From Anaerolineae bacterium (GTDB lineage: Bacteria; Chloroflexota; Anaerolineae; Anaerolineales; Anaerolineaceae): a stretch of 64,000 nt of DNA. The stretch spans positions 26,214 to 90,213 of the forward strand of contig JABLXM010000003.1 of assembly GCA_013177815.1 (NCBI GenBank), written 5' to 3'. Below, in pieces: positions 21,297-58,189 of this stretch. Each line of letters starts with the position of its first letter. Position 1 is the stretch's first letter. Under the pieces are notes generated by a model, which searched no databases, was not told the DNA's origin, and was given only the letters and a program-made list of their open reading frames with translations. The translations under genes were made by a program, and so were the position numbers.

Positions 21297-21853
21297 CCAC
21301 AGAGACACGGAGACACAGAGATTTTTCTCTAAACTAGAGGCGTATAGAGATCAAGAATTGGCAAATATCAGGTTATGTAATTATCAGGATTATTGAGTTG
21401 TCGAAGATGCTCATAGATAGACCCAAAACAATGACCGCGGCTGACCTGGCGCTATTGAATCCCATCACCCACGATGTGATCGGCGCCGCCATCGAGGTGC
21501 ACCGTCAGCTTGGACCTGGTCTGCTCGAGTCGATCTATGAAACATGCCTGGCGGAAGAGTTAAAGCTCAGGGATATTCCTTTTGTCCGTCAAGTACGCCT
21601 GCCGGTCGTTTACAAAGGCATCGAACTGGATTCTGAATATCGTGTGGATATGGTTGTCGATCACAGTGTGGCGATCGAGATCAAGGCAATCGAATCGCTT
21701 CAACCAGTTCATGAGGCTCAAATGCTCACTTATTTAAAGTTGGGTAAATGGAAGCTGGGACTGTTGATGAACTTCAATGTGCCAGTCATGAAGGATGGTA
21801 TCAAGCGATTGGTTTCATAAAATTTGTTTCTCTGTGCCTCTGTGTCTCTGTGG
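21297..21853. mobile_element. Putative GxxExxY cassette bounded by 25-bp imperfect inverted repeats
   Basis: Left 21297-21321 CCACAGAGACACGGAGACACAGAGA; reverse complement of right 21829-21853 CCACAGAGACACAGAGGCACAGAGA (23/25 identical). Confidence 0.65.
21398..21820 (+). CDS. GxxExxY family protein (PDDEXK-like nuclease fold)
   Basis: GPGLLESIYETCLAEEL, YRVDMVVDHSVAIEIKAIE; TTG at 21398 or ATG at 21407. Confidence 0.88.
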   Translation: MSKMLIDRPKTMTAADLALLNPITHDVIGAAIEVHRQLGPGLLESIYETCLAEELKLRDIPFVRQVRLPVVYKGIELDSEYRVDMVVDHSVAIEIKAIESLQPVHEAQMLTYLKLGKWKLGLLMNFNVPVMKDGIKRLVS

Positions 21854-41362: not shown

Positions 41363-43540
41363 TTACTGGCAGCCTCCCATATCGATGGGCGTCTTGCACT
41401 TGGTGGGCGTGGCGCTGGGCGCCTGCGTCAGGGTGCGGGTGGGCGTATTGGTCACGGTTGGTGTCTGCGTTATGGTGCGGGTTTGGGTGCGCGTGCCGGT
41501 GCGGGTGGGCGTGCGCGTAATGGTTGGCGTTCGTGTGATGGTCGGCGTTTGTGTAATGGTGGGCGTTTGTGTGATGGTGCCGGTGCGGGTTTGGGTGCGC
41601 GTCACCGTGATTGTGCGCGTTATTGTCGAGGTCGGCGCAACCACATCCGTGATTTGGAACTGAAATGTTTCCAAGGTGGAATAGCTCAACGGGTTGTTGT
41701 TGACCCCAATGACATAGACGTCATAGGTGCCGTTGGTGATCAGCGTACCGGTGCTCCAGTAATCCTGCATCGGCATGCGGGTGTAGCAATTTCTGCCGTT
41801 GTCACCGAAGATGCAGTAAGGGGCGCTGCTCTCGGTTTGGTCGTGCACCTTGACGCCGGATGAGTCATAGACCAGGAAGCGCACCTGTTTAATTCCGTGT
41901 TGGGGATCGGTCACATTGGCGGCGATGTAGAACGCTCCCGAGACGACGCTGTCGTAGATCGGCTCCACCACCGGACCGTTCAGACCGCGCGCAGTCTTGC
42001 TGCACGATAGACCGCCAACGGTGTAGCGGATGGTGGTCTCGAAATCCGAGCCATGATAGTAGTTATAGGACGTGCCGCTGTGGGGCCACAGGTTGACGTA
42101 AAAGTTGCTGGTGAACCCCTGCGAAAATTCCCGGTACTGCCCGGGCTCCAGGCTGGGCGGGGTCGGAAAATCATAATCCCAATTGGTGCCGACGCTGGTA
42201 AGCGGGACCCGCGCGGCAGTGGGCGGCGAGTAGAACCAGGACGGGCTGCCACCCTCCGGCGCCAGTCCAAAGCGGCGCGTCGAGATGATGGGTCTGGTCA
42301 CACCGGATTCATTATGCCAGTCGTGCAGCCATATGCCGTGAACGCCGGTCAGCACCACATCCCAAGCCGGGCTGGTGTTGAGCATCCCCAGATAGATGAC
42401 CGACCCCTGCACGGTCAGCAAATCCGGAATGCCGCCGTCACGCACCGGCACGATCTGCAGGTCATCACACGAGGGGACAGGGGTGTTGGTGACCGTCCGC
42501 GTCAGGGTAACGGTGCGCGTGATGGTGGGGGTGCGGGTGACGGTGGGCGTCTGCGTGATGGTCACCGTGGTGGTGGTGGTGGGCGTCTGCGTTTCGGTGG
42601 GGGTGAGCGTCTCGGTCGGCGGGAGGGGGGTGTAGGTATGGGTGGCAGCGATGGCAATGCCGCCGGTCAGACCGGTGACGCGCGAATTCCGGAACTTTTC
42701 CACCAGTCCCTCGCGCTCAGAGGTCAACCGCAGGGTGGGCCACCAACTGCTGAGGAAAGGCGTGATGAGCGTGTGGCGGTAGGTCAACACCACCCGCACA
42801 CGGTCACCGGGACCGCCGGCATCATCCACATAGCGCAAAATGCCGCTGTTATCGCCAGCGGAAAACTCGCAATAGACCGGATATTTATACATATCCTTGG
42901 TGCCCGGGTCATAGGGGTTGTAATACTCCGGATTTGGATTGAAGCGGAAATAATCGCCATCCGGCGCTGTGATGCGGTTGGAGCACATGGTAACGTTGAA
43001 ATAACCCGGCAGGCTGGGGTTGCCGCGATAATCCTGCATAAAGCCGCTGCTGACATAGGCGTTACCCAGATAACCCAGGTAATCCCCGGAGGTGGTGCTA
43101 TCCGGTTCCCAGGCGATGCCGGTGGCGCCGGATAGTGCTGCCTCGCGGATCGATGGCATGCGGGCGTAGTCCTGCAACGCGGCGTTCCATATTTCTGTCA
43201 CTTCCTCACCACTGACGATGAGATTAGGCGGCACTTCGCAGTCATAGCCGCCGCCTGTGGCGTCCGCCGCCTGGATGCCGGGGTACAGGTTCTCCAGTGC
43301 AGCCGCCGCCTCATCACAATAGTCCGGGTTGTAAGAGCCAGTCACGGCGTAACGCACGCCAAAGCGCGCGCCATTCTCCAACGCCAGCCAGGCTTGCATC
43401 AAGCGACCGAACTCGATGATGCCGAAGATCATCATCAGCAGGATGGGCAGCGCCAGAGCGAACTCCAACATGCTTTGCGCCGGGTGTTGCGCGCGCAAGC
43501 GGGAAACGACTTGAGAACGAAATCGCCGGATGGTGTTCAT
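41363..43540 (-). CDS. TadE-like pseudopilin domain protein with two Thr-rich TxTxTP repeat blocks
   Basis: QSMLEFALALPILLMMIFGIIEFGRLMQAWLALENGARFGVRYAV; repeats TPTITRTPTITRTPTRTGTRTQTRT. Confidence 0.8.
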   Translation of the reverse strand: MNTIRRFRSQVVSRLRAQHPAQSMLEFALALPILLMMIFGIIEFGRLMQAWLALENGARFGVRYAVTGSYNPDYCDEAAAALENLYPGIQAADATGGGYDCEVPPNLIVSGEEVTEIWNAALQDYARMPSIREAALSGATGIAWEPDSTTSGDYLGYLGNAYVSSGFMQDYRGNPSLPGYFNVTMCSNRITAPDGDYFRFNPNPEYYNPYDPGTKDMYKYPVYCEFSAGDNSGILRYVDDAGGPGDRVRVVLTYRHTLITPFLSSWWPTLRLTSEREGLVEKFRNSRVTGLTGGIAIAATHTYTPLPPTETLTPTETQTPTTTTTVTITQTPTVTRTPTITRTVTLTRTVTNTPVPSCDDLQIVPVRDGGIPDLLTVQGSVIYLGMLNTSPAWDVVLTGVHGIWLHDWHNESGVTRPIISTRRFGLAPEGGSPSWFYSPPTAARVPLTSVGTNWDYDFPTPPSLEPGQYREFSQGFTSNFYVNLWPHSGTSYNYYHGSDFETTIRYTVGGLSCSKTARGLNGPVVEPIYDSVVSGAFYIAANVTDPQHGIKQVRFLVYDSSGVKVHDQTESSAPYCIFGDNGRNCYTRMPMQDYWSTGTLITNGTYDVYVIGVNNNPLSYSTLETFQFQITDVVAPTSTITRTITVTRTQTRTGTITQTPTITQTPTITRTPTITRTPTRTGTRTQTRTITQTPTVTNTPTRTLTQAPSATPTKCKTPIDMGGCQ

Positions 43541-43542
43541 GG

Positions 43543-45462
43543 TCACTCTGCAATCCTGGTATAAATGCGGGTGGCGATGTCTTCGAAGATGGGCAACAGG
43601 TCCAAACCGGATGCGGCGTAATAATATTGCCCACAATCCTCACGGTGAGGGGTCAGTTGGCACGGGTCGGTGGTGCGGTCCCCATCATCCCCCACCGCTG
43701 CCATATAGCGCAGCAAATCCTCGCCGACGGTGCCGGCGCCCAGACCGATGCCGCCGCCCACCCCAATCGAATAGATCGCCAGGTCGTTGCCGGGGGGTTC
43801 GTTCAGGTTGGTGGAGTGGGTCAGCGCGGCTTCGTCCGTCATATCCAGAGCGTAATCCAGCACGCTGTAAGAAAGGTTGGGCACCGAACCATCCCAGGTG
43901 GTGCCACTTGGGCAAGTGGTCGCCGTATCATCGATGCAGTAGCGGTCTGGGAAATCGTAATCGATACAGGCGGTGGTCCAAAAACTCTGCCCGAGCGGAC
44001 CGGTACAAAAGCCATTGGGATATTGCACCGGGATGTTGCCGCTGGTGGAAGGCGTATCGCTCAGGTTGACGATGCCATCGGAGAGGAACACGATCACCCA
44101 CACTGCACCCGGTCGCCCATTCTGCTTGAGGATGTTGGAGGCGGTGCGTATGCCGCAGCCGGTGCAGGTCGAAAGCAGCGAAGGCACGGCAAAGGCGGTT
44201 TGCGGTCCGGCGCCGTCCGGGTCGCGCGTATTCTTGGTGATCCAGGCGCTGCCCACCACATTATCGTTCTCGCTATAGCTGCCATCGCCATCCCAATCCA
44301 CCGCATCGAACTTGAAATCGTCATCACACGGGAAACCCCCATAACCCAGGTAGTTGAACTTGACGTTCTCGTCCCAGCGGTCGGAATCGAGCGTGCAGCA
44401 CATGGGGTGAAAGGGGTTGATGTAACAGGGCGGCAGATTGGGGTCGGCATCCGCCCCATCGCCGTCGCGGTCCTCCGGGTTGGCAGGGTTGAACATAGGG
44501 GTGTTGCCAATACGCGACGAGATCCAATAGGGCCATAAGTAGTTGTAAGGCGGATCATCGTGCAGCAGGATGGTATCCACGGCGTTGCTGGCAGCATCCA
44601 GGTCATCGCTCAACGCCACATTCGTGCCCAGCATGTTGGGGATCGAGTGGGTTACACCGATGCTGTCAAAGGTGACCAACCCCACCTGGTCGTAGCCCTC
44701 ATACAATGTAGCGATCAGCGCCTTGGCGGCTTCCTTGGCTTCGTACAGCGGATGGCAGGAATTATCCACGTTGCAACCCACCGGATGGCTGGCGTCTGCG
44801 GTGGTGCGGTCGGGGTCATAATAGCCGGCGATGTCCGGGTAACTCGGATCCAGGGTACCGATGGTATCGCTAGCCATCGATTCCGAAACATCGATCACGA
44901 TCACCAGGTCCACCGGCGCAGCCTCCGCAATCGAATTGGTGCGCAGCGTGATCGAATTGAAACCCAGCAGGTGAAGGAAGTACAGTGGCGCTTGCTGCTG
45001 CGCCGCCAGCCACACCAGTTTACGCGGCGCTTCCATATTTTCGGTATCCGGGCAGCGCTGGTAGAATTGCGGCGCGCTGGTTTGCAGGTCCGTATCGCGG
45101 ATGCCATCGCCGTTCAGGTCGCATACGAACACATCCAGGTCCACCGTGGTCATATCGACGTTGTGCAACGCCAGCACCTCTTCCGAAGCCTCGCTCATCA
45201 GCGCCACCCGTTCCACCATCGTCATGCCCTCGGTGCCGCGTTTGAAGTCGTTGGCAGCCGCCACCGCGGCGGAATCGACCGCGCGTTTCAGTTGTCCATA
45301 GGTGACGTAAACCGCGCCGGCATCCACTGCCAGTCCCACGAAGAAGAGCAGGACGAACAGCGAGACCGCGAAGATCACCACCACTTGCCCGCGCGGGGCA
45401 GGTTCATGGCTTGGGCGTCGCAGACGGTTGAGCAGCGGGGAGAGGCATGAGGGTATATGCAT
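43543..45462 (-). CDS. TadG-like Flp pilus-assembly protein with VWA domain
   Basis: GQVVVIFAVSLFVLLFFVGLAVDAGAVYVTYGQLKRAVDSAAVAAA; MIDAS DVSES; start ATG at 45462. Confidence 0.82.
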   Translation of the reverse strand: MHIPSCLSPLLNRLRRPSHEPAPRGQVVVIFAVSLFVLLFFVGLAVDAGAVYVTYGQLKRAVDSAAVAAANDFKRGTEGMTMVERVALMSEASEEVLALHNVDMTTVDLDVFVCDLNGDGIRDTDLQTSAPQFYQRCPDTENMEAPRKLVWLAAQQQAPLYFLHLLGFNSITLRTNSIAEAAPVDLVIVIDVSESMASDTIGTLDPSYPDIAGYYDPDRTTADASHPVGCNVDNSCHPLYEAKEAAKALIATLYEGYDQVGLVTFDSIGVTHSIPNMLGTNVALSDDLDAASNAVDTILLHDDPPYNYLWPYWISSRIGNTPMFNPANPEDRDGDGADADPNLPPCYINPFHPMCCTLDSDRWDENVKFNYLGYGGFPCDDDFKFDAVDWDGDGSYSENDNVVGSAWITKNTRDPDGAGPQTAFAVPSLLSTCTGCGIRTASNILKQNGRPGAVWVIVFLSDGIVNLSDTPSTSGNIPVQYPNGFCTGPLGQSFWTTACIDYDFPDRYCIDDTATTCPSGTTWDGSVPNLSYSVLDYALDMTDEAALTHSTNLNEPPGNDLAIYSIGVGGGIGLGAGTVGEDLLRYMAAVGDDGDRTTDPCQLTPHREDCGQYYYAASGLDLLPIFEDIATRIYTRIAE

Positions 45463-46159
45463 GGATTTGGATGGGGTTGGGTAAGAAGTCAGACATGATG
45501 GGAATTCCCAGTACCTGGGAGTAACAATAATAGAACTCCACCGCCACGAAACCTTTGTTGTTGGTGGAATTGAGGGACATATCGAGGTCGATGCGATCCT
45601 TGGTGTAATAAGGCTGTGTTCGCACAGGTTCACCCGCGCAATTGCGTTTGAAATTGCTGTTGTGCGCCAGGTCGGCGTCATGGTCGGAGTACGCCCAGTA
45701 GCCATCCGGCTGGGGCCAGACCGGATCCTGTACTGAGTGATCCATCACGGTATAAACGGATATTACGATATCGTCGGTCTCGGGATCGAAGACCATGTAA
45801 GGATTCAATCCGTTGCACCAATCGGTATCGGTGCAATTGGGCGACCCTGTGGGCGGCGAAAAGATGCAAGAGGTGTGGAAGTAAAAATGAAAGGGATCCG
45901 GCTGCGAACAGGAGACCGTATCCAACCCTGCCAGCGTGTACGGGTCGCGCACCGAGGCGAAGCGCGCCGCCTCGCGCGTCAGGTCCAGTACATCCAGGTA
46001 TCGTCCAATGAAGATGACCACTTCCACCATGCCCAACAGCATGATCAACAGGATCGGCAACACCAACGCCAGTTCAATGAAGGATTGCGCCTTCTGCAAC
46101 CGGTTCTTCCCCGCAACGGGCTGGGTTGGAGACGTGTTGATGAATGATTTGCCATCCAT
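45404..46159 (-). CDS. TadE-like pseudopilin protein
   Basis: AQSFIELALVLPILLIMLLGMVEVVIFIGRYLDVLDLTREAARFAS. Confidence 0.82.
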   Translation of the reverse strand: MDGKSFINTSPTQPVAGKNRLQKAQSFIELALVLPILLIMLLGMVEVVIFIGRYLDVLDLTREAARFASVRDPYTLAGLDTVSCSQPDPFHFYFHTSCIFSPPTGSPNCTDTDWCNGLNPYMVFDPETDDIVISVYTVMDHSVQDPVWPQPDGYWAYSDHDADLAHNSNFKRNCAGEPVRTQPYYTKDRIDLDMSLNSTNNKGFVAVEFYYCYSQVLGIPIMSDFLPNPIQIHAYTLMPLPAAQPSATPKP

Positions 46160-46312: not shown

Positions 46313-46339
46313 AAAATCGGCAATGGCATTGCCGATTTT
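46313..46339. promoter_or_regulatory. Perfect palindrome just upstream of the phage-module promoter
   Basis: AAAATCGGCAATG-G-CATTGCCGATTTT (13-bp arms, 1-nt centre). Confidence 0.55.
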
Positions 46340-46345
46340 GGGGGC

Positions 46346-46376
46346 TTGACACATGCACTTCCATATTTATTATAAT
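46346..46376 (+). promoter_or_regulatory. Sigma70-like promoter for phage module
   Basis: TTGACA (46346-46351) with TATTAT at 16-nt or TATAAT at 19-nt spacing. Confidence 0.5.
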
Positions 46377-46410
46377 AATTAGAACATAATTTCGAAATCG
46401 TTATTACCAG

Positions 46411-46725
46411 GTGAAAGCACGGCAAGAAATGCACTCAACCCCCAAACGGTCCCGCAAGACCACCCGCGACAGCCAACGCCTGGATGTGGAGATCGCCATG
46501 ATCCGGAATCTGATCGAGCGGCTGGCGCTGGAAGCCGGTCAATCCGATAACCTGCCCGACCTGGTGCGTGTCCTCAACGCCATCAGCCAGGCGAGCACCC
46601 GCCTGGCGGCGCTGCTCAAAGACAACCGCCAACTGGCGGAAGATCAGGACCTGTCTGGCGCATTGCAGTCCGCCATCAGCGAGGTGGCAGAGGAATTACG
46701 CCAGACAACGTTGCTGGAGCCTTAG
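46411..46725 (+). CDS. Small hypothetical protein, positional candidate for small terminase subunit
   Basis: First ORF of the phage-like operon; helical, charged; GTG at 46411 or ATG at 46429. Confidence 0.45.
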   Translation: MKARQEMHSTPKRSRKTTRDSQRLDVEIAMIRNLIERLALEAGQSDNLPDLVRVLNAISQASTRLAALLKDNRQLAEDQDLSGALQSAISEVAEELRQTTLLEP

Positions 46726-46907
46726 ACCGGATGGGGACGGGGTTTTTGCTGGCTGGCAGTGCCTGCCCCGCCTGCCGCCAACCGCTGGCAGGCTCAGTGG
46801 GATAAACCATCACTGCCCGAGCGCCGCGCCCTTGTGGCTTTCAAGACGCCGGACTCCCTGAGCCGCGCCAGACTGCCAGCCAGCACATCACAAGGAGAAC
46901 GAAAGGA

Positions 46908-47171
46908 ATGCCAACCCAATCCGAGATCAATCTGATCGCCGAACAACTGCGCCAGGCGGAGGTCAACAGCCTGCGGGCGGAGCTGCGCCACCTGCGTGAG
47001 ATGACCGATGCCCGCCTCAAGCTGTTGGAGCACGCCAGCCTGGATCATGAAACCCGCCTGCGCGCCGCCACCGACGGCGTGACCAGCTTCAAGACCTGGT
47101 CCGGGCTGGCGAACGGCGGCTCGTCCATCCTGGCGCTGCTGGCGCTGGTCAAGTCCTTCTTCCTGCCATGA
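46908..47171 (+). CDS. Coiled-coil plus C-terminal TM small protein (XhlA/holin-like)
   Basis: RQAEVNSLRAELRHLREMTDARLKLLEHA then GGSSILALLALVKSFFLP; AAGGA upstream. Confidence 0.5.
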   Translation: MPTQSEINLIAEQLRQAEVNSLRAELRHLREMTDARLKLLEHASLDHETRLRAATDGVTSFKTWSGLANGGSSILALLALVKSFFLP

Positions 47172-47177
47172 AAACGC

Positions 47178-48683
47178 ATGCCCCTGACGCAACAGCAACT
47201 CTTAAAAACCGCACTGCGCGATGTGGCGCTCTTCTCGTCGCGTCTGACCGGCATCCGGCTGCGCAGCTACCAGCAAGTGGTGGCGCAGGCGGTGCTGGCG
47301 TCGGTGTTCGGCGAGCGCGGGCGCTCCTTCGTGATCATGTTCCCGCGCCAATCCGGCAAGAACGAACTGCAAGCGGGCATCGAAGCCTACCTGCTGCTGG
47401 TGCTCTCGCAGCAACCCGCCGAGATCGTCAAGGTCTCGCCCACCTGGAAGCCCCAATCGCAGAACGCCATGCGCCGGCTGGAGCGGGTGCTGCAAGCCAA
47501 CCATTTGACACGCCAGTTGTGGCGCAAGGAGAACGGTTACATCTACCGCATCGGGCAGGCACGCGCCACCTTCCTTTCCGGCGCGCCGGAATCCAACATC
47601 GTCGGCGCCACCGCCTCCACCCTGCTGGAAGTGGACGAAGCCCAAGATGTACTGGTGAGCAAGTTCGACCGCGAGATTGCGCCGATGGCTGCCAGCACCA
47701 ATGCCACGCGCGTCTTTTGGGGCACCGCCTGGACGGCAGCCACCCTGCTGGGGCGCGAGCTGCGGCTGGCGCGCCTGGCGCAGCAGAGCGATGGCATCCG
47801 GCGGGTCTTCACGCTCTCCGCCGAACAGGTGGCGGCGGAAGTGCCCGCCTATGGCGACTACGTGCGCGCCCAGGTGGCAATGCACGGCAGGGATAACCCC
47901 ATGGTGCGCTCGCAGTACTTCTCGGAAGAGGTGGATGGCGCCGGCGGCATGTTCAACCCCGGGCGGGTGGCGCTGTTGCTGGGCGACCACCCCCGCCTGG
48001 AGCAGCCGCGCGCCGGGCACATCTACGCCGGGCTGCTGGACGTGGCTGGCGAGGACGAAAACCAGGGCAGCGTGCACACCATGCTGACGAACCCGCGGCG
48101 CGATTCCACTGCCCTGACGGTGGTGGAGGTCGACACCGCCACCCTGGCGGACGACCTGATCCGCCGCCCCACCTACCGCGTGGTGCACCGCCGCACCTGG
48201 CAGGGCGTGCGCCATGCCAGCCTGTACAGCCAACTGCGCGCCCTGGCGGATCACTGGCGCATGGCGCACCTGGTGGTGGATGCCACCGGCGTGGGGGCGG
48301 GGCTATCCGCCTTTCTCTCGCAGGCGCTGCCCGGGCGGGTCATCCCGTTCAACTTCTCCCTGCGCAGCAAATCGCAATTGGGCTGGCAGATGCTGGATCT
48401 GGTGGAACAGGGGCGCTTCAAGGAATATCACCCCCCGGATGACCTGTTCCTGCGGCAGTTGCGAGCGGTCGAATACGAGATCCTGCCCGGCGTCGGTCAG
48501 GTGATGCGCTGGGCGGTGCCCGAAGGTGCCCGCGACCCGGTCGATGGGGCGTTGCTGCACGATGACCTGGTGCTTTCGGCAGCGTTGGTGGGCGTGCTGG
48601 ATTCACTGGAGTGGCACACCAGCCGTCCGGCGACTGTGCTGCCCGGCGACGACCCGCTGCGCGAGCTTGACCGCGGTTTCTAG
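47178..48683 (+). CDS. Phage terminase large subunit
   Basis: Walker A-like MFPRQSGKNE, Walker B LLEVDEAQDV, nuclease-like VVDATGVG and LHDDLVLSAALV. Confidence 0.85.
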   Translation: MPLTQQQLLKTALRDVALFSSRLTGIRLRSYQQVVAQAVLASVFGERGRSFVIMFPRQSGKNELQAGIEAYLLLVLSQQPAEIVKVSPTWKPQSQNAMRRLERVLQANHLTRQLWRKENGYIYRIGQARATFLSGAPESNIVGATASTLLEVDEAQDVLVSKFDREIAPMAASTNATRVFWGTAWTAATLLGRELRLARLAQQSDGIRRVFTLSAEQVAAEVPAYGDYVRAQVAMHGRDNPMVRSQYFSEEVDGAGGMFNPGRVALLLGDHPRLEQPRAGHIYAGLLDVAGEDENQGSVHTMLTNPRRDSTALTVVEVDTATLADDLIRRPTYRVVHRRTWQGVRHASLYSQLRALADHWRMAHLVVDATGVGAGLSAFLSQALPGRVIPFNFSLRSKSQLGWQMLDLVEQGRFKEYHPPDDLFLRQLRAVEYEILPGVGQVMRWAVPEGARDPVDGALLHDDLVLSAALVGVLDSLEWHTSRPATVLPGDDPLRELDRGF

Positions 48684-48711
48684 CACCCACGAGCACAAGA
48701 AAGGAGACCTT

Positions 48712-49398
48712 ATGATCACCCCCACACAGGGAAGCATCACCCAACATTTTGGCGAGAACCCGCAAGTCTACGCCCGCTGGGACTACCCCGGTCACAACGG
48801 GTTGGACCTTGCCGGGCAGCTTGGTCAGCCAGTGCTGGCGGTCGCCGCCGGGCGGGTCGCCAACGGTTACGAACCGGCAGGGTACGGCACCTATATCGAA
48901 GTCGATCACGGCGGCTTCTCCACCCTCTATGCCCACCTGGCATTCCGCCTGGTGAACGACGGGCAGCCAGCGGCGGCAGGCGAGGTGTTGGGCGGCTTGG
49001 GTTCCACCGGTTTTTCCAGCGGTCCACACCTGCACTTCGAAGTGCGCATCCCAGGACAGGGCGCGCCCGGCTATCGCCGGCACCAGGTGGACCCGCTGCC
49101 CTACCTGCAGGGCGAAAAGTCCCTGCCGGCGCTTGGCAGCCCAGAGGGGGAAGCGCCAGAGGTGGTGACCGGGCGGGTGCTGTGTCGCTCCTTGCTGGTG
49201 CGCTCGCGCCCCAGCACCCAGGGCGCCGTCGTCAGCCGGCTGGCTCATGGCGACGAGATTGCCCTGCACGCACTGACCGCCGTGTGGGCGCAGATCGGGC
49301 GCGGGCGCTATGTGGCGCTGCGCTATGACGGCGAAGAGCTGGTCGCGCTGGACGCGGACGGGCTGCAACGGCTATCCGCCGCCGGGAGGGGCGCATGA
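48712..49398 (+). CDS. M23 family metallopeptidase with C-terminal SH3-like domain
   Basis: HNGLDLAG (HxxxD), HLHFEVR; GAGACC upstream of ATG at 48712. Confidence 0.88.
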   Translation: MITPTQGSITQHFGENPQVYARWDYPGHNGLDLAGQLGQPVLAVAAGRVANGYEPAGYGTYIEVDHGGFSTLYAHLAFRLVNDGQPAAAGEVLGGLGSTGFSSGPHLHFEVRIPGQGAPGYRRHQVDPLPYLQGEKSLPALGSPEGEAPEVVTGRVLCRSLLVRSRPSTQGAVVSRLAHGDEIALHALTAVWAQIGRGRYVALRYDGEELVALDADGLQRLSAAGRGA

Positions 49399-50756
49399 CG
49401 CTCTGGAGCCGCATCTTCAAACCCGAACGTGCCGCGCCAGCCCAACGCGCCCGCTTCTCGCAACCGGAGGAGACCGAAGCCACCCTGGCGCTGGGCGCTT
49501 CGCTCTTCGGCGGCTCGCCGCGCGACCGTCTGAGCTACAGCCGCCAGGAGATGCTGGCGGAATGCCTGCTGGCGTGGCGCATCAACCCGCTGGCGCGCCG
49601 CCTGGTGACGCTGACCTCGCAATATGTCATCGGCGACGGACTCAAGATCACCTGCAAACACCCCGCCACCAACAACTTCATCCACCAGGTCTGGCAGCAC
49701 CCGCTCAACCGCCTGGCAACCCGCACGGTGGACTGGTGCGACGAACTGACCCGCAGCGGCAACCTGTTCATCCTGGTCAGCACCGACGGCGGCGGCATGT
49801 CCTACCTGCGGGCGGTGCCGGCGGCGGAGATCGATTCCATCACCAGCCGCCCCAACGACATCGAGCAGCCGCTGCTGTTCCAGCCCAGGGCGGGTGCGGG
49901 CGAGCCGCTGATGTTGAAACCGCCCCCCTACCGTGCTTACGACCCAGCTAACGACCCGCAGCCTTTTGCGCCGGTCATGCTGCATTACACCATCAACCGA
50001 CCGGTAGGCGCGCAGTGGGGCGAATCGGACCTGGCGCCGGTGCTACGCTGGCTGAGCCGTTACGCCAACTGGCTGGAAGACCGCGCCCGCCTGAACCGCT
50101 TCCGCAATACCTTCGTGTATGTCGTCAGCGGGCGCTTCACCAGCGAACGCGAGCGCCAGGAGCGCCAGCGCGCGTTGCACCAGGCGCCGCCCACCCCCGG
50201 CGCCATCCTGGTGAAGGACGATTCGGAACACTGGGAGGTGCTGGCGCCCAAGCTGGAAAGCGACGAAGCCGCCGCCGATGGGCTGGCGCTCAAAAAGATG
50301 ATCGCTGCCGGCTGCGGTGTGCCGCTGCACTTCCTGGCGGAGCCGGAAAGCGCCACCCGCACCACCGCCGAGGCGGCGGGCGGTCCCGCCTACCGCGCCT
50401 TCGAGCAGCGCCAGCAGTACTTCACCTGGTTGGTGGCGGATATTTTGAACGTCTGCATCCGCCGGCGCCGGCTGGTGTTGGGGGCAGTCCGGGGCAGCCC
50501 TTCGCCCGAAGCCGATGTGCACGTGCACGGCGCCGATATCTCGGCGCGCGACAATGCCTCATTGGCAGGCGCGGCGGCGGACATGGCGCCGGTGCTGTGC
50601 ATGCTGCGCGACCGCTGCCTGATCGACGATGAGGAGTTCCTGCGGCTGCTTTACCGCTTCAGCGGCGAGGCGCTCGACCCCGCCGAGATGCTGGCGCGCG
50701 CCGCCGCCCCGCCGACGCCAGCCACCCCGGCTGTCAGCCCGGAGGCATCCCGATGA
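49395..50756 (+). CDS. Phage portal protein
   Basis: Position between terminase and protease/capsid; RINPLARRLVTLTSQYVIGDGL, KKMIAAGCGVPLHFLAEPESATRTTAEAAGGPAYRAFEQRQ. Confidence 0.78.
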   Translation: MTLWSRIFKPERAAPAQRARFSQPEETEATLALGASLFGGSPRDRLSYSRQEMLAECLLAWRINPLARRLVTLTSQYVIGDGLKITCKHPATNNFIHQVWQHPLNRLATRTVDWCDELTRSGNLFILVSTDGGGMSYLRAVPAAEIDSITSRPNDIEQPLLFQPRAGAGEPLMLKPPPYRAYDPANDPQPFAPVMLHYTINRPVGAQWGESDLAPVLRWLSRYANWLEDRARLNRFRNTFVYVVSGRFTSERERQERQRALHQAPPTPGAILVKDDSEHWEVLAPKLESDEAAADGLALKKMIAAGCGVPLHFLAEPESATRTTAEAAGGPAYRAFEQRQQYFTWLVADILNVCIRRRRLVLGAVRGSPSPEADVHVHGADISARDNASLAGAAADMAPVLCMLRDRCLIDDEEFLRLLYRFSGEALDPAEMLARAAAPPTPATPAVSPEASR

Positions 50757-50794
50757 CCGCCACCAACCTCACACCTGCGTTCAAGGAGGGCAGC

Positions 50795-52723
50795 ATGCAG
50801 ACCCATCAAGCGCGCATCCGCTTGCAGCAGGCGCTGCCCACCGGCGAGCCGCCCATCGCCGGGCAGCCAGGGGGCGCCTTCGAGATCCTCGCCATCACCG
50901 CCGGCGAAGGCAACGGCTGGCATTTCCCCGCCGCGGTGCTGCAGGAATCGCTGCCGTTGTGGCAAGGCGCAGAGTGCTTCATCGATCACGCCTGGCGCGG
51001 GCATTCGCTGCGCGACCTGGCGGGCGTGCTGACTGAAGTCCACTACGACCCGCAGGCGCAGGGCATCCAGGCGCACTTGCAGCCCTTCGGTCCCGCCGCC
51101 GCCCTGCTGGAGGAAATGGGGCGCGCCATGTTGAATGCGCCAGTCGCCCCGGCGGTTGGTTTTTCCGCCGATATCTTGTTCAGCGCCGAAGGACAGCGAG
51201 TGGCGCGCATCCTGCGGGTTTTCTCGGTCGACCTGGTGATCGACCCGGCTCGCGGCGGCACCTTCATGCGGGCGCTCAATTCACAGTGGGCGGGCAGCCC
51301 GCCCGCCCTACGAAAGGAGAATACCATGCCACACGAAACGCCCACCCAAAGCCCCGACCCCGGGGCGCTGCAACAGGCGGTCAACGCGGAACTGGAAAGC
51401 GCCCAAAGCCTGCGGCAGCAACTGTGCGCCAGCCTGCTGGAAAGCGCGCTGGCGGTCTCCAACCTGCCGGCGCCCGCCGCCAACCAGGTGCGCCAGCGCT
51501 TCAGCGGGCGAGCCTTCGACCCGGCTGATCTGAACAGCGCCATCGAGGAGACGCGCGACCTGGTGAGCGCCCTGACCGCCGGCGCGGTGGTGCAGGGTCC
51601 CGGGCGCCTCTCCGCCATGCACAGCAGCGAGGAGCAGTTCACCTCCGCCGTGCACGACCTGCTGGGCGCGCCGCGCCCACAGGGGCTGGAAGGCGTGCAG
51701 CCGCACCGCCTGGGCGGCATCCGCGAACTCTATACCCTCATGACCGGCGACATCGAGTTCCGCGGCACGCTCGACCCCCAACGCGCCCTGTTTGCCACCC
51801 CCAACACCAGCGCCAACCTGCCGGGCGTGCTCAAGAACGCCCTCAACAAGCTGGTGCTGCTGCATTGGGAGGAACTGGGGCGCGCCGGCTACCGCTGGTG
51901 GGAGCCGGTGGTGCAGGTGGAGCACTTCAACTCGCTGCAAGCGCTCACCGGCGTGCTGGTGGGCGAGGTGACCGTGCTGCCCACCATCGCCGAGGGCGCC
52001 GCCTACACCGAACTGGAGGTCAGCGATTCGCCCGAGACCGCCGCCTGGACCAAGTACGGCGGCTATATCGGGCTGACGCTGGAGATGTTCGAGCGTGACG
52101 AGACCCACAAACTGCGCCAGTACCCGCGCAAACTGGCGTCCGCCGGCTTGCGTCGCATCTCCAGCCTGGTGAGCGCGGTCTTCACCGCCAACGGCGCGGT
52201 GGGTCCGGTCATGGCGGATACTTACAACGTCTTCGACGCCTCCCATCACGCCAACCTGGGCACCGCCGCGCTCTCCGGCGCAGCCTGGGAAGCCGCCTCG
52301 CAAGCCATCTATGAACAACCCATGGTGGTCGCCGCGGGCGGAGAGGCGCCCGTGCTGGCGCTGGACGCGCGCTACCTGCTGGTGCCGCGCGAGCTGCGCC
52401 TGACCGCCATGCGCATCCTCTACCCCACCTGGGAGCGTGAAGCCAACATCGTCTCGGAGAACTTGCAGCGCGGGCAGTTCGGCGATGTCATCACCGTGCC
52501 CGAATGGAGCGACGCCAACAACTGGGCGGCGGTCGCCGACCCGCGCCTGGCACCGGGCATCATCCTGGCGGAGCGCTTCGGCGTAATGCCGGAAGTCTTC
52601 ATCGCCGATAACGAACTGAACGGCGCGCTCTTCACCAACGACCAGTTGCGCATCAAAGCGCGCCACTGGCTGGCGGTGCTGGTGGCAGACCACCGCCCGC
52701 TCTACAAAGCCAACGTGGCTTGA
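50795..52723 (+). CDS. Fused prohead protease-like / major capsid protein
   Basis: N-terminal protease-like CFIDHAWRGHS...VGFSADI; C-terminal capsid-like VQVEHFNSLQALTGVLVGEVTVLPTIAEGAAYTEL...IVSENLQRGQFGDVITVPEW; start 50795 behind AAGGAGG. Confidence 0.72.
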   Translation: MQTHQARIRLQQALPTGEPPIAGQPGGAFEILAITAGEGNGWHFPAAVLQESLPLWQGAECFIDHAWRGHSLRDLAGVLTEVHYDPQAQGIQAHLQPFGPAAALLEEMGRAMLNAPVAPAVGFSADILFSAEGQRVARILRVFSVDLVIDPARGGTFMRALNSQWAGSPPALRKENTMPHETPTQSPDPGALQQAVNAELESAQSLRQQLCASLLESALAVSNLPAPAANQVRQRFSGRAFDPADLNSAIEETRDLVSALTAGAVVQGPGRLSAMHSSEEQFTSAVHDLLGAPRPQGLEGVQPHRLGGIRELYTLMTGDIEFRGTLDPQRALFATPNTSANLPGVLKNALNKLVLLHWEELGRAGYRWWEPVVQVEHFNSLQALTGVLVGEVTVLPTIAEGAAYTELEVSDSPETAAWTKYGGYIGLTLEMFERDETHKLRQYPRKLASAGLRRISSLVSAVFTANGAVGPVMADTYNVFDASHHANLGTAALSGAAWEAASQAIYEQPMVVAAGGEAPVLALDARYLLVPRELRLTAMRILYPTWEREANIVSENLQRGQFGDVITVPEWSDANNWAAVADPRLAPGIILAERFGVMPEVFIADNELNGALFTNDQLRIKARHWLAVLVADHRPLYKANVA

Positions 52724-52760
52724 TCGACCCGCATCGAACAACGAGAAAAGGAGAAAAATC

Positions 52761-53132
52761 GTGAACACCCTCTTGACTTCCCGCAAATTCTGGTTCACCG
52801 CCCTGGCGCTGCTGGTGGTGGTGATGCAGGCATTCATCCCCACCTTCGAGATCGATCAGGAGAACGCCGCCGCCCTGTTGGTGGTGATCGTCTCCTACCT
52901 GGTGGGCGTTTCGGTCGACCCCGGACCGGGCGGCTGGCGCGGTGTGCTGCGCTCGCGCAAGTTCTGGAGCGCCGTGGTTGGGCTGCTGATCATCCTGCTG
53001 GATGGCTTCGGTCTGGCGCTGCCCTTCGAACTGACCGCGGAGCAGTTGATCGCATTGGCGGTCACCATCGGCGGCTATATCACCGCGGTCGCGCTGGAAA
53101 AGCCCAAAGGGCTGCCCCAGCCGGCGCGCTGA
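52761..53132 (+). CDS. Holin-like small membrane protein with two tandem homologous halves
   Basis: SRKFWFTALALLVVVMQAFIPTFEI repeated as SRKFWSAVVGLLIILLDGFGLALPFEL. Confidence 0.6.
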   Translation: MNTLLTSRKFWFTALALLVVVMQAFIPTFEIDQENAAALLVVIVSYLVGVSVDPGPGGWRGVLRSRKFWSAVVGLLIILLDGFGLALPFELTAEQLIALAVTIGGYITAVALEKPKGLPQPAR

Positions 53133-53153
53133 ACCGGCGCCCGCGTTGATCTT

Positions 53154-53205
53154 GGTGAGCGAAGCGACTCCAAACCATCCCGCGCCTGCCTTCGCTTCGC
53201 TCACC
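53154..53205. repeat. 14-bp perfect inverted repeat (hairpin)
   Basis: GGTGAGCGAAGCGA-(24 nt)-TCGCTTCGCTCACC. Confidence 0.8.
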
Positions 53206-53218
53206 GCCCTGCACAACC

Positions 53219-53302
53219 TGTGGATAACCCGCCGTTTTCTGTGGATAACCCGGCATTCCCTGTTGATAACTGTCGATATTTTCTGGATAAAAGTGAGGAA
53301 AA
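53219..53302 (+). repeat. Four DnaA-box-like direct repeats with exact 21-bp period (origin-like)
   Basis: TGTGGATAA at 53219 and 53240, TGTTGATAA at 53261, TCTGGATAA at 53282; TGTGGATAA is the complement of TTATCCACA. Confidence 0.75.
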
Positions 53303-53305
53303 CCC

Positions 53306-53506
53306 ATGAACATCTTCGAGATTGCGCGCGGGCTGGCTGGCGAGGGGGTGCTTTCCTGCCGGCGGCGCGCCGATGGCAGCCTGGTCGTCATCAACGCCCG
53401 CGGGCAGAAGGTGATCTACCCCGCCGATGTGGTGGCGGCGCTGGCGGAAAAACTGGCTGCCGTCTCACCCCGGCGCCGCAAAACCGGCAAGCGCGCCGGG
53501 CGCTGA
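53306..53506 (+). CDS. Small basic hypothetical phage-module protein
   Basis: 66-aa ORF in operon, basic tail RRRKTGKRAGR; AGTGAGG upstream. Confidence 0.45.
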   Translation: MNIFEIARGLAGEGVLSCRRRADGSLVVINARGQKVIYPADVVAALAEKLAAVSPRRRKTGKRAGR

Positions 53507-53516
53507 GGAGCACGTT

Positions 53517-54023
53517 ATGCCCACCCCCGGAAAGGACTGCGACATCACCCTGGCACACCCGCTGGTCAACGGCGGCGAGCCGGTCGGCTTCATGCTGCAC
53601 CCCGCCAACCAACTGATCGGACCGGAGGTGCGCATCCATCACGAGGTCTACACCGACGCGCTGGCGCAGCACTTCGACGTGCGCCACCTGTGGTTCGACG
53701 TGCTGATCGCCGACGAGTTGTTGGCGCCGGATGGCAGCCGCCTGGCGGGCGCCGCCAGCCAAATGCTGGCGCACCTGACAGCCATCGCTGCCGCGCACAC
53801 CAACATCGCTCTCGATACCCGCCTGGGCGTCATTTCGGGGCTTTCTGCCCTGCAACATGCCCTCATCTATTCCATCCGCCACGACCACACCGTCATCACC
53901 GTGCACCTCACCACCCACTCGGCGAACTTCCAGCCTGCCAACCCTGCCTACTACTTCGCTTCGGTCTGGCAGGCGGCGGATTACAGCGGCGAGATGGATT
54001 GGAATAATTCCTATTGGAGGTAG
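53517..54023 (+). CDS. Hypothetical virion-associated protein
   Basis: 169-aa ORF, GAGGAG ribosome-binding site, co-directional with virion genes. Confidence 0.5.
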   Translation: MPTPGKDCDITLAHPLVNGGEPVGFMLHPANQLIGPEVRIHHEVYTDALAQHFDVRHLWFDVLIADELLAPDGSRLAGAASQMLAHLTAIAAAHTNIALDTRLGVISGLSALQHALIYSIRHDHTVITVHLTTHSANFQPANPAYYFASVWQAADYSGEMDWNNSYWR

Positions 54024-54027
54024 GAGC

Positions 54028-55341
54028 ATGAACTACCCTTTGTCTTCCGATGTCAGCGCCGGGCAGCCCACCGCCGCCAGCCACTATAACAACCTGCGCG
54101 CCGATGCCCTGCGCCTGGGTCAATCCGCCGGCGATGCGGTCAACCTGGGCGACCTGCTTTCAGATTATCAAAGCCATCTGTCGATCGAATACCTTGCCAC
54201 CAACCGCCTGCGTGTGCCGGCATCCGCCGCCGAGCCAGTGGCGTTGGTGATCGGCGGGGCGCCGCTGCGAGCCACCGCCAATGTGGACCTGCCCGCCGGG
54301 CGATTCTCCGGCGCGCCCGCCACCTGGTACATCTTCGCCGTGCAAACCGCCGGCAGTCACGCCTTCAGCCTGGAGGTCAACACTTCGCCGGAGGGCGCTG
54401 CCAACAAGCGCCTGATCGGTTCGGTCTACTTCGACGGCGATGATCTGATCCAGGACAGCATCCGCACCCGCCAGGCGGCGCATATCGCCGACCTGCTGGC
54501 GCTGGCGTACGCCCAGCGCTGCGATGGTCGCCTGACGTTCGCCAGCGGCGCGCCCGTGCCGGGCACGGATATCACCGCCGCCGGCACGCTGTATTTCACG
54601 CCCTATCACGGCAACCGCGTCAGCCTGTACAACCCGCTCACCGGCTGGGGCTTGCGCACCTTCGACGAACTATCGATCTCGCTCGCCGCCCTCTCCGCTG
54701 GCGAGATGGCAGACGTGTTCATCCATGATGAAGGCGGCGCGCTGGCGCTGCAATTGGAAGCGTGGTCCACCCCCAACGCCCGCGCCGCTGCGCTCACCCG
54801 CCAGGACGGGGTGCTGGTCAAGTCGGGCGCGGCGGGCTGCCGCTACCTGGGCACGCTCTACGCCAACGGCAGCGGCACCGGCGAGGACAGCCAAGCCAAC
54901 CGCCTGCTATGGAACTGCCGCAACCGCGTGGCGCGCAAACTGCTGCGGCAGGAGACGACCGATTCCTGGAGTCACACCGCCGCCACCTGGCGTCCGTTCA
55001 ACAACGATGTCGCCAACCGCTTCATGTTCGTCGCCGGGCTGGTGGAGGACGCCTTCAGCATCAGCGCCGTGGGCATGTCCTCCAACGCATCCTCCACCAA
55101 TCGCTACCTGGGCATCTGCGACAAGGACGGCTCGGATTACGTCCTGCGCCCGGCTGCGCTTTCTGCCATCGGCGCCACCCAGAACCGCATCAGCATGGTC
55201 GCGCAGTGCGTCGACCTGCCGGCGCTGGGTCTGAACACCCTCTACCTGGGCGAATACGGCGCCTCCGGCACCACTTTCTACGGCGATTACAGTGTTCCCG
55301 GTCAGTTGCAATGCGGCGGGAGCGGTCTATGGTACGCCTAG
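54028..55341 (+). CDS. Hypothetical virion structural (fibre/spike-like) protein
   Basis: 438-aa ORF, Gly/Ser/Ala-rich beta-type composition, TAGGAG upstream of ATG. Confidence 0.5.
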   Translation: MNYPLSSDVSAGQPTAASHYNNLRADALRLGQSAGDAVNLGDLLSDYQSHLSIEYLATNRLRVPASAAEPVALVIGGAPLRATANVDLPAGRFSGAPATWYIFAVQTAGSHAFSLEVNTSPEGAANKRLIGSVYFDGDDLIQDSIRTRQAAHIADLLALAYAQRCDGRLTFASGAPVPGTDITAAGTLYFTPYHGNRVSLYNPLTGWGLRTFDELSISLAALSAGEMADVFIHDEGGALALQLEAWSTPNARAAALTRQDGVLVKSGAAGCRYLGTLYANGSGTGEDSQANRLLWNCRNRVARKLLRQETTDSWSHTAATWRPFNNDVANRFMFVAGLVEDAFSISAVGMSSNASSTNRYLGICDKDGSDYVLRPAALSAIGATQNRISMVAQCVDLPALGLNTLYLGEYGASGTTFYGDYSVPGQLQCGGSGLWYA

Positions 55342-55354
55342 GGGAGGAGGAACG

Positions 55355-56005
55355 ATGAGCGACCTGGCTGAATTCATCACCCGCCTGCGCCAGACCCTGG
55401 GCGACCCGGCTGGCGAACGCTACGGCGAGAGCCTGCTGGCGGAGGCGCTGCGCAAGGCGCTGGCAGGCTACGACCAGGCGGCGCCGCTGGTGCGCATCCA
55501 GGATGTGATCTTCGCCGGCGATGGGCGGCAGCAAGCGCTGGCGGGGCTGGGCGGTCTGCTCAGCCTGCAACAGGTGGTCTATCCATACGTCGACGAAAAC
55601 TCCCCAGCCACCCACGCCTACACCTGGTACTGGCTGGACGGGGTGGCAGTGTTGGACCTGAGCACCCGCGCCGCCCCACGGGCTGGCGAAACGGCGCGGC
55701 TGACCTTCAGCGCCCGCAACACCATCGCCGGGCTGGATGGCGCCGCCGAAACCAGCCTGCCGGCAGAACACGACACCGCCCTGGTGGAGGGCGCCGCGGC
55801 TTTTGCGCAAATGATGCGCGCCCTCAGCATCAACGAAGCCTACAACAACCGCAACACGCAACTGGACCTGTTGGCAGAATCGCGCCGGCGGCTGGAGTCG
55901 TACGAGGAGATGCTGCGCCGCATCGGTCGCCTGGCGTTCACCCCGCCCGGCGCGTTCGCCGCCGGCGGCTGGCGCCTGGACCGCTGGGATGGCATCCGGT
56001 CATAG
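55355..56005 (+). CDS. Putative head-tail connector/adaptor-like protein
   Basis: 217-aa ORF, helical connector-like, GGAGGAGG upstream; last gene of module. Confidence 0.45.
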   Translation: MSDLAEFITRLRQTLGDPAGERYGESLLAEALRKALAGYDQAAPLVRIQDVIFAGDGRQQALAGLGGLLSLQQVVYPYVDENSPATHAYTWYWLDGVAVLDLSTRAAPRAGETARLTFSARNTIAGLDGAAETSLPAEHDTALVEGAAAFAQMMRALSINEAYNNRNTQLDLLAESRRRLESYEEMLRRIGRLAFTPPGAFAAGGWRLDRWDGIRS

Positions 56006-56010
56006 ACGCC

Positions 56011-57110
56011 CCGTCATCCTGAGGCTACTGCCCTCCGACATCCTGAGGCTGCGTATCACAATCACCGTCATCCTCAGGCTGCTGCCCCCAGTCATCCTGA
56101 GGCTGCGTATCACAATCACCGTCATCCTGAGGCTGCGTAGCAGCCGAAGGATCTCCCAGGTCGAGGCGGGGAAGCCAGCCCGTCCGTCATTCTGAGGACG
56201 GGCTGGCTTCTGAGAATAAGTCAACAACACCCCACACCCCATCATCTTGACGGCTACTGTGCCCCACCTCCCGTCATCCTGAGGCTGCGTATCACAATCA
56301 CCGTCATCCTGAGGCTGCGCAGCAGCCGAAGGATCTCCCAGGTCGAGGCGGGGAATATCCTTCGCGCACTGCCCGCCCTCAGAATGACGGATTGGTAAAC
56401 TCCCAAGCGTATCAATCCCAATCCAGACTCAAATCTCTCCACCGGGGATTAGTAGTCGTTATCAATGCAATCTTCTTTTCCCTCCTCCAACCCTTGATCT
56501 GTTTTTCACGAATGATTGCATCTTCTATGGACTCGAATTGCTCAAAATACACCAAATATTTGATGTTATATTTTGCCGTAAAGCCCGGAATCAATTTCTC
56601 CTTATGTTGTTGAACACGTCCATATAGATCTGATGTGACTCCTGTGTATAGGATCTTCGTCCTGCTGGACATGATATAGGTATATCCGCCTTTATTCATC
56701 ACTGATAATCATATCCGCAATGTCTATAATAGACATAATTGAAACGCGATGCTTAAGACACTTGGCTCTACACACCCGTCATCCTGAGGCTGCGTAGCAG
56801 CCGAAGGATCTCCCAAGCCAAGGCGGGGAATATTCTTTGCGCACCGCCTGCCCTCAGAATAACAGATAGGCTGGCTGATCAGACGGCAACCAACACCCCA
56901 CACCCTGTCATCTTGACAGCTACTGTGCCCCACCTCCCGTCATCCTGAGGCTGCACAGCAGCCGAAGGATCTCCCAGTTTGAGGTGGGGGAAATTCTTCG
57001 CGCACTGCCCATCCTCAGAATGACGAATAGGGCTGGCTTCTGAGAATAAGTCAACAACACCCCACACCCCGTCATGGTTGAGGTGGAGGAGATCCTTCGG
57101 GCACCGCGTG
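56011..57110. repeat. GTCATCCTGAGG repeat array (REP-like, palindromic units about 90 bp) interrupted by a GIY-YIG ORF
   Basis: Repeated CCGTCATCCTGAGGCTGCGTAGCAGCCGAAGGATCTCCCA...CCCTCAGAATGACGG units (e.g. 56776-56864, 56937-57025), plus hairpin GAAGCCAGCCCGTCC-N10-GGACGGGCTGGCTTC at 56171-56210. Confidence 0.85.
56412..56702 (-). CDS. GIY-YIG nuclease superfamily protein inside repeat array
   Basis: GGYTYIMSSRTKILYTGVTSDLYGRVQQHKEKLIPGFTAKYNIKYLVYFEQF, REKQIKGWRREKKIALI. Confidence 0.88.
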   Translation of the reverse strand: MMNKGGYTYIMSSRTKILYTGVTSDLYGRVQQHKEKLIPGFTAKYNIKYLVYFEQFESIEDAIIREKQIKGWRREKKIALITTTNPRWRDLSLDWD

Positions 57111-57115
57111 CCCTC

Positions 57116-57547: not shown

Positions 57548-58189
57548 ATGCTCAATCTCTCCCCCGCCACACTCATCACCCGCATCATCACACTGGTCAT
57601 CGCCTTTTCGGTGCACGAATTCGCCCACGCCTGGAGCGCTACCCAACTCGGCGACGACACCCCGCGCCTGAACGGGCGCCTGACGCTCAACCCGCTGGCG
57701 CACCTGGACGTGATGGGCTCGCTGATGCTGCTGGTGGCGGGCTTCGGCTGGGCAAAGCCGGTGCCGGTCAACGCCTACGCGCTGATGCGGCGCTCGCCCG
57801 CGGGATTGATGCTGGTTTCGCTGGCGGGACCGCTCGCCAATCTGTTGATGGCGATCCTCGCCGCCGTACCGCTGCGCCTGAACCTGTTCCCCGCCAGCTA
57901 TAGCAGCGGGCTGCTGCCCACCCCCTACAGCTTCCTGTTGGAGTTCATGGTCATCAACCTGCTATTGATGCTGTTCAACCTGATCCCACTGGCGCCGTTG
58001 GACGGCGAAAAGGTTGCCACCTACTTCCTGCCCGCCCGCTGGGCGCGCAGTTGGGATAGCATCCGCCCATACAGCCCGCTCATCCTGATGGCGCTGATCT
58101 TCGTGCTGCCGATGGTGGGCGTCGATGTCATCGGCTGGATCATGCGCCCTGCCATGAACAGCCTGATCACCCTGTTGATAGGAGCCTGA
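57548..58189 (+). CDS. Site-2 protease (M50) family protein
   Basis: HEFAHAWSA (HExxH), NPLAHLDVMGS, NLIPLAPLDGEK; ATG at 57548 behind GAGG. Confidence 0.92.
   Translation: MLNLSPATLITRIITLVIAFSVHEFAHAWSATQLGDDTPRLNGRLTLNPLAHLDVMGSLMLLVAGFGWAKPVPVNAYALMRRSPAGLMLVSLAGPLANLLMAILAAVPLRLNLFPASYSSGLLPTPYSFLLEFMVINLLLMLFNLIPLAPLDGEKVATYFLPARWARSWDSIRPYSPLILMALIFVLPMVGVDVIGWIMRPAMNSLITLLIGA

Follow-up and report, generated by a model that had tools for sequence, protein, structure and literature searches.

A vertically inherited virion operon in the Anaerolineaceae, probably a short-tailed element resembling gene transfer agents

Proven gene transfer agents (GTAs) are few, and most of them are alphaproteobacterial. 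RcGTA and CcGTA (Rhodogtaviriformidae) are inherited vertically under purifying selection as one set per genome, without replication or integration genes; the genome of RcGTA is scattered across several loci and includes a complete siphovirus-like tail. Brachyspira has BhGTA (VSH-1) and Bacillus subtilis has PBSX, both of them small particles filled with random host DNA; they are long-tailed and induced by DNA damage, and PBSX kills instead of transferring. FpGTA of Faecalibacterium (Nat Commun 2026) is a 10.5-kb podovirus-like operon working as a GTA, with heads of about 40 nm and bacterial DNA of 8.4-8.9 kb (~9 kb) in its particles (PMC12946183). Here we analyse a stretch of 64,000 nucleotides, called the window below, from a metagenome-assembled genome of the Anaerolineaceae (Chloroflexota; G000, 3.24 Mb, 88.9% complete), in which a compact phage-derived virion module of 11 intact genes occupies positions 46429-56005 of the plus strand. 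No GTA of the Chloroflexota was found in the open-access literature, and as far as searched the element is new to Chloroflexota-type bacteria. On the whole, we consider it probable that the module is a domesticated, vertically inherited virion operon, most likely a short-tailed GTA under SOS control.

In architecture, FpGTA is the nearest described system. Both are compact operons of about 10 kb with small terminase (TerS), large terminase (TerL), portal, capsid and lysis genes, podovirus-like and lacking a long tail, and FpGTA is likewise widespread in its host, where it is genus-wide. However, FpGTA belongs to a different phylum, encodes scaffold and capsid in separate genes and keeps its fibre and lysis genes in another operon of 5.5 kb, whereas the window module has the protease fused to the capsid, one operon for all genes and an SOS box. 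With RcGTA and CcGTA the module has in common its mode of inheritance, the purifying selection, the single set per genome and the missing replication and integration genes. An RcGTA-type long siphovirus-like tail with its tape measure was not found in the module, nor the tape-measure family PF10145 in the genome, and the ancestor was likely a phage distinct from that of RcGTA. The likeness to BhGTA and PBSX lies in the small particle with random host DNA, which is here predicted, and in the induction by DNA damage, which the SOS box of the module would match.

The initial annotation had described a compact co-directional virion module with terminase, M23 peptidase, portal, protease-capsid and holin-like genes, and the analysis finds every one of these genes present and open; the small terminase and a 66-aa open reading frame (ORF) had been overlooked. 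The genes are spaced by -4 to 182 nt, and their G+C content of 0.65-0.70 exceeds the 0.55-0.60 of the surroundings. TerS comes first (46429-46725, with an alternative GTG start at 46411); members of its family match four PHROG small-terminase families (best 2e-6) and lie directly 5' of TerL in most loci. It is followed by an 87-aa protein with a coiled coil and a C-terminal membrane helix (46908-47171), kept in 26 loci, whose sequence suggests an XhlA-like lysis accessory. TerL (47178-48683; PHROG terminase 6e-10, Pfam Terminase_6C above cut-off) consists of an ATPase and an RNaseH-like nuclease with intact motifs, and its Walker A FPRQSGKN, Walker B DEAQ and nuclease aspartates are conserved across 68 sequences. 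Then come an endolysin, namely an M23 endopeptidase with an SH3-like domain (48712-49398; 3e-24), the portal protein (49395-50756; PHROG 1e-32), and the fusion of prohead protease and major capsid protein (50753-52723; Phage_capsid_4 2e-26), in which protease residues H79 and S138 are invariant. The holin (52761-53132; PHROG holin 5e-4) and the small conserved 66-aa protein (53306-53506; 14 loci) precede three proteins of 168 aa (g168, 53517-54023), 437 aa (g437, 54028-55341) and 216 aa (g216, 55355-56005), the last being a head-tail connector-like protein present in 69 loci with a weak PHROG structural match. The start of the M23 gene and those of these last three genes are given as corrected, at 48712, 53517, 54028 and 55355.

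The claim that integrase, repressor and replication genes are absent from the module was borne out, and neither flanking direct repeats (a possible pair of attachment (att) sites) around the module nor a tRNA in the window was seen. Judged from these genes, the module encodes the parts for building a capsid, pumping DNA and lysing the cell, and nothing with which it could replicate, integrate or repress itself. As separate observations, the window holin appears to be a tandem duplication, with two repeats of the form of about 65 aa that most relatives have, and four DnaA-box-like sequences, two of them exact TTATCCACA, lie with an exact spacing of 21 nt between the holin gene and the 66-aa ORF (53219-53290). 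The DnaA-box cluster was rejected as a common replication signal, similar clusters being found in few relatives only.

The annotation had also stated that long-tail genes are missing. This holds for the tape measure, since the largest gene of the module is the 656-aa capsid fusion, and the absence of PF10145 extends to the whole of the 88.9% complete genome; the module is not, however, wholly tail-less. The AlphaFold2 model of g168 (predicted local distance difference test score 86) has as its best PDB matches in Foldseek phage neck, tail-tube and baseplate-ring proteins, with E values of 2e-3 to 2e-2 and modest TM scores of 0.4-0.45, and in BFVD it matches Dit-like and tail tube proteins, so that a tail-tube or Dit N-terminal fold forming a neck or short-tail ring is predicted. 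In g437 the 30 N-terminal residues, a putative anchor, are conserved while the C-terminus diverges, a pattern that suggests a fibre-like or receptor-binding protein; it has no database match. In relatives the g168-g437 tail-tip cassette of the window may be replaced by an alternative one, c7-c8. Searches of g437, c7 and c8 against PHROG and Pfam returned nothing, unnamed families or a domain of unknown function, and PDB sequence profiles of g216, g168 and c8 gave chance matches only; the mostly generic jelly-roll matches of c8 in Foldseek were not used. The predicted particle is most naturally read as a capsid that bears a connector, a single ring and fibres, and hence a very short tail.

The module is not sporadic, as an ordinary prophage would be expected to be. 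A protein search finds the capsid fusion in 102 of 147 genomes of the host family and in 29 of its 40 genera, and in 50 of the 64 good genomes (at least 90% complete, at most 5% contaminated). Its absence is moreover overstated, because G031, scored as capsid-negative, still has a small terminase beside TadE near a contig end, like its congener G088. Beyond the host family, the portal profile detects more copies within the same order and class; they occur in 42 of the 198 genera that make up the class-level sample, and most are single and intact. Each genome has one locus, except three of genus g8 with two; among the second copies there (e.g. G170:C5:14001-15881) one capsid carries an in-frame TAG, and these extra copies may decay. 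The gene order is largely shared in about 80 loci, usually as TerS, the coiled-coil protein (b) in some, TerL, lysin, portal, capsid, holin and connector followed by one of the two tail-tip cassettes, and no tail-length genes flank the module. The lysin is a GH25 lysozyme in most relatives and an M23 peptidase in the window. In genus g17 (loci L056, L111-L115) the module is split and rearranged, with capsid and portal apart (by about 27 kb in G016); this could be a form with several loci, or else another phage lineage, the sister of the integrase-bearing element L287 discussed below. A conserved protein of about 169 aa (c22) stands behind the capsid in, for example, L061, L302 and L332 and is absent from the window; it is possibly a head decoration protein.

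The annotation had named frameshifted core genes as a sign of decay, and across species the frames are intact: a single reading frame is found in 78 of 78 capsid, 67 of 68 TerL and 70 of 72 portal sequences. The check it had proposed, the ratio of nonsynonymous to synonymous substitution (dN/dS, by simple Nei-Gojobori counts as for all such values here), gives low within-genus medians of 0.18 for TerL, 0.145 for portal and 0.13 for capsid, with 0.16 for holin, 0.15 for lysozyme, 0.10 for g168, 0.165 for g437 and 0.36 for g216, against 0.03 for rpoB. In the same pairs of genomes, synonymous divergence (dS) of the module is close to that of rpoB: 0.28-0.31 and 0.33 for G020/G107, 0.45-0.64 and 0.60 for G154/G163, and 0.97-1.05 (terminase, portal and capsid) and 0.96 for G121/G129. 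This equality argues for descent of the module together with the chromosome. The tree of TerL, portal and capsid has 34 of 52 splits in common with that of rpoB and fusA (55 genomes), and none of 2000 label shuffles gave more than 3; each genus represented by more than one genome forms one clade, 28 of 30 within-genus splits agree, and module and host distances within genera are correlated with r of 0.94-0.999. At class level, where G503 with its bad rpoB row was left out, the correlation is 0.62 over 38 taxa, and outside the order it is 0.57 (13 taxa, 0 of 2000 permutations), while families with several members mostly hold together. By these comparisons the module and its host family have diversified together, with the module held under purifying selection, and domestication is positively supported by the congruent trees, the equal dS and the low dN/dS.

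A candidate control signal heads the operon. A promoter-like TTGACA - 19 nt - TATAAT (46346-46376, plus strand) is directly followed after its -10 element by a LexA/SOS-type box TAGAACATAATTTCGA (46380-46395, plus strand), which agrees at 11 of 14 positions with TAGAACANNTGTTCTA; in most relatives a better-matching box heads the module. The consensus TAGAACANNTGTTCTA had been derived from palindromes upstream of TerS in these same data, and the re-test therefore used the published motif GAACN4GTTC, which serves as LexA box in Bacillus and other Gram-positives (PMC4234289, PMC3323433). Allowing at most one mismatch within 200 nt upstream, this motif, a candidate LexA box of these hosts, is found at 44 of 55 family modules and at 21 of 260 control promoters, these being other host promoters of the same loci with similar GC (P 2e-27). 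The P value overstates independence, the loci being related by descent, and more weight falls on the fact that the box recurs in 20-odd genera and ahead of rearranged operons. Of 58 loci, 55 have the extended motif within 400 nt with a match of 11/14 or better; it precedes whichever gene comes first in rearranged modules and also heads modules of other families, and matches of 12/14 or better are absent from 531 kb of rpoB regions. All 27 genomes tested have LexA and RecA genes. SOS (LexA) control of the module is therefore likely, as far as promoter sequences tell. Beside this, a perfect 27-bp palindrome with 13-bp arms (46313-46339) between TadE and the promoter, seen in the window only and not conserved in sequence across genera, may be an operator or a divergent terminator. 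In genus g17 a LexA-type box stands before the capsid gene (L111, L112). The same type of box also precedes small conserved proteins of genera g15 and g7 (L127:470, L139:149 and L072:769, module-oriented), which are probably one family (about 44-159 aa as called) and a possible SOS gene.

The flanks are chromosomal. Upstream lie the host genes TadG2, TadG1 and TadE on the minus strand (41363-46159, TadE ending at 46159), and downstream an M50 peptidase (57548-58189, plus strand) and a prephenate dehydrogenase, both host genes outside the module. Tad genes stand directly upstream of the module in seven genera (g1, g4, g11, g21, g27, g32 and g36) that are spread over the tree. Directly behind the module we see a small GIY-YIG-like ORF (56412-56702, minus strand) and, at 56031-57115, an 89-nt non-coding repeat (CGTCATCCTGAGGCTGCG...) in several copies that match imperfectly; far upstream, at 21431-21820, a small GxxExxY-type protein is encoded within the complex I (Nuo) operon.

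The GTA definition comprises six features (PMC9662315), of which three can be read from sequence, and all three are found here: particle proteins derived from tailed phages, in their sequence part (terminase, portal and protease-capsid by Pfam and PHROGs), vertical inheritance with co-diversification, though weaker between genera, and full endogenisation, with host genes on both sides, the same neighbour in seven genera and no mobility genes. The other three concern the particles themselves and are a matter for experiment: packaging of mostly random host DNA, a head too small for the element's own genome, and delivery of the DNA to other cells. Of these, the small head would not be guaranteed for a module of about 9.6 kb.

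In IMG/VR there are 123 confirmed relatives; what follows refers to the best 80 of them, which were fetched, nearly all contigs of at most 26 kb. Many are "viral" contigs of 4-16 kb with module genes only (among L032-L052 and L286-L345), and these are probably host chromosome fragments filed as viruses. In contrast, the elements L046, L287, L302, L332 and L334 measure about 19-26 kb and carry the virion set of the module, from TerS, TerL, portal and protease/capsid to holin and connector, with capsids about 48-58% identical and no tape measure in the stretch available. They differ from the module by extra genes, namely a tyrosine integrase in L287 (Pfam 7e-27) and HTH (helix-turn-helix), ArdC-like, UvrD-like and SWIM proteins, with further accessory genes in common to L046, L302, L332 and L334, and they are presumably mobile. 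No family locus has a homolog of their integrase. The nearest proteins of cultured phages are only 24-33% identical. Because these mobile relatives use the same virion set and interleave with the family lineages, the resident module seems to be a reduced version, now fixed, of the virion genes that an uncultured family of short-tailed phages carries.

Several points weigh against a domesticated, SOS-controlled GTA. The formation of particles, the packaging of host DNA and its transfer are predictions from the genes. The window's own box is imperfect, with 7 of the 8 core bases of GAACN4GTTC, and LexA boxes are found on ordinary prophages too. Congruence between genera is moderate (Mantel r 0.39, 40 of 2000 permutations), copies of family f12 nest within or beside f1, which means that transfers have occurred, and the mobile relatives, which span 19-26 kb and include the integrase-bearing L287, interleave with the resident lineages, the genera of f1. 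Some genera may accordingly have acquired their copy separately. The interleaving and the modest congruence, together with the accessory genes that several mobile relatives share, are what a host-faithful prophage lineage would leave: temperate short-tailed phages of about 25 kb, captured genus by genus, whose copies lost their mobility genes and were then inherited. We regard this as unlikely, since a useless remnant would decay, whereas the frames are intact with dN/dS of about 0.15 across species; no mobility genes stand near any family copy, there is one locus per genome with dS equal to that of rpoB, and the Tad neighbour is common to seven scattered genera. The marks of an active temperate prophage, namely integrase, att sites, repressor and replication genes, were likewise not found. 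As for a decaying remnant, the missing integrase and tail genes and the in-frame stop in a second copy of genus g8 would suit it, but it is contradicted by the purifying selection, the intact frames and a promoter box conserved in dozens of genera, and was rejected as having next to no probability.

A domesticated particle might also do another job, with DNA-filled or empty heads that kill or signal as in PBSX, or with lysis and DNA release serving a biofilm. The lack of a long tail for injection would fit, as would an SOS box like that of inducible killer particles and the two cassettes of fibre and tail-tip genes, the most changeable part, as expected of a targeting device; yet known killer particles require a working tail, and the conserved terminase and portal imply that packaging DNA matters, so that we think this quite improbable. 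The annotation had proposed a domesticated particle-forming, GTA-like or satellite element, and the analysis supports the proposal, with the GTA-like form preferred to the satellite because there is no integrase, there are no helper-hijack genes and inheritance is vertical. A capsid-encoding satellite relying on the tail of a helper phage would resemble the module in its size of about 10 kb, its own terminase, portal and capsid and its lack of a long tail; but no integrase, primase or regulator is present in module or flanks, copies are single and co-diversified, the module brings its own lysis genes, and no matching helper tail was seen, PF10145 being missing from the genome. This reading was rejected as very improbable.

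Under the preferred reading, a short-tailed GTA-like element, DNA damage would lead RecA to trigger the cleavage of LexA, and the operon would be expressed in some cells. TerS and TerL would fill capsids through the portal, presumably with host DNA because the element has no genome that could be preferred. A neck and short tail for attachment would be formed by the connector (216 aa), the ring with its tube fold (168 aa) and the fibre (437 aa), and the holin and M23 endolysin would free the particles, the DNA of which relatives would take up. That the module works like a GTA can be said with fair confidence, and that it is one provisionally. A wider claim, to which we give about an even chance, is a class-wide GTA lineage, independently domesticated from uncultured short-tailed phages of about 25 kb, directly controlled by LexA and lacking a long tail, whose tail tips and lysins can be exchanged and which would have belonged to the standard equipment of the chromosome from the origin of the family or earlier.

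In any case, most species of a large and mainly uncultured family have a cluster of virion genes that selection keeps intact, other families of the class have copies of it too, and many short "viral" contigs in public collections are thereby explained as probable pieces of bacterial chromosomes. If the GTA reading is true, it can pay a host to retain a particle set that lacks a long tail and answers to the SOS response, and the exchange of DNA in capsids would be routine in a major group of environmental bacteria.

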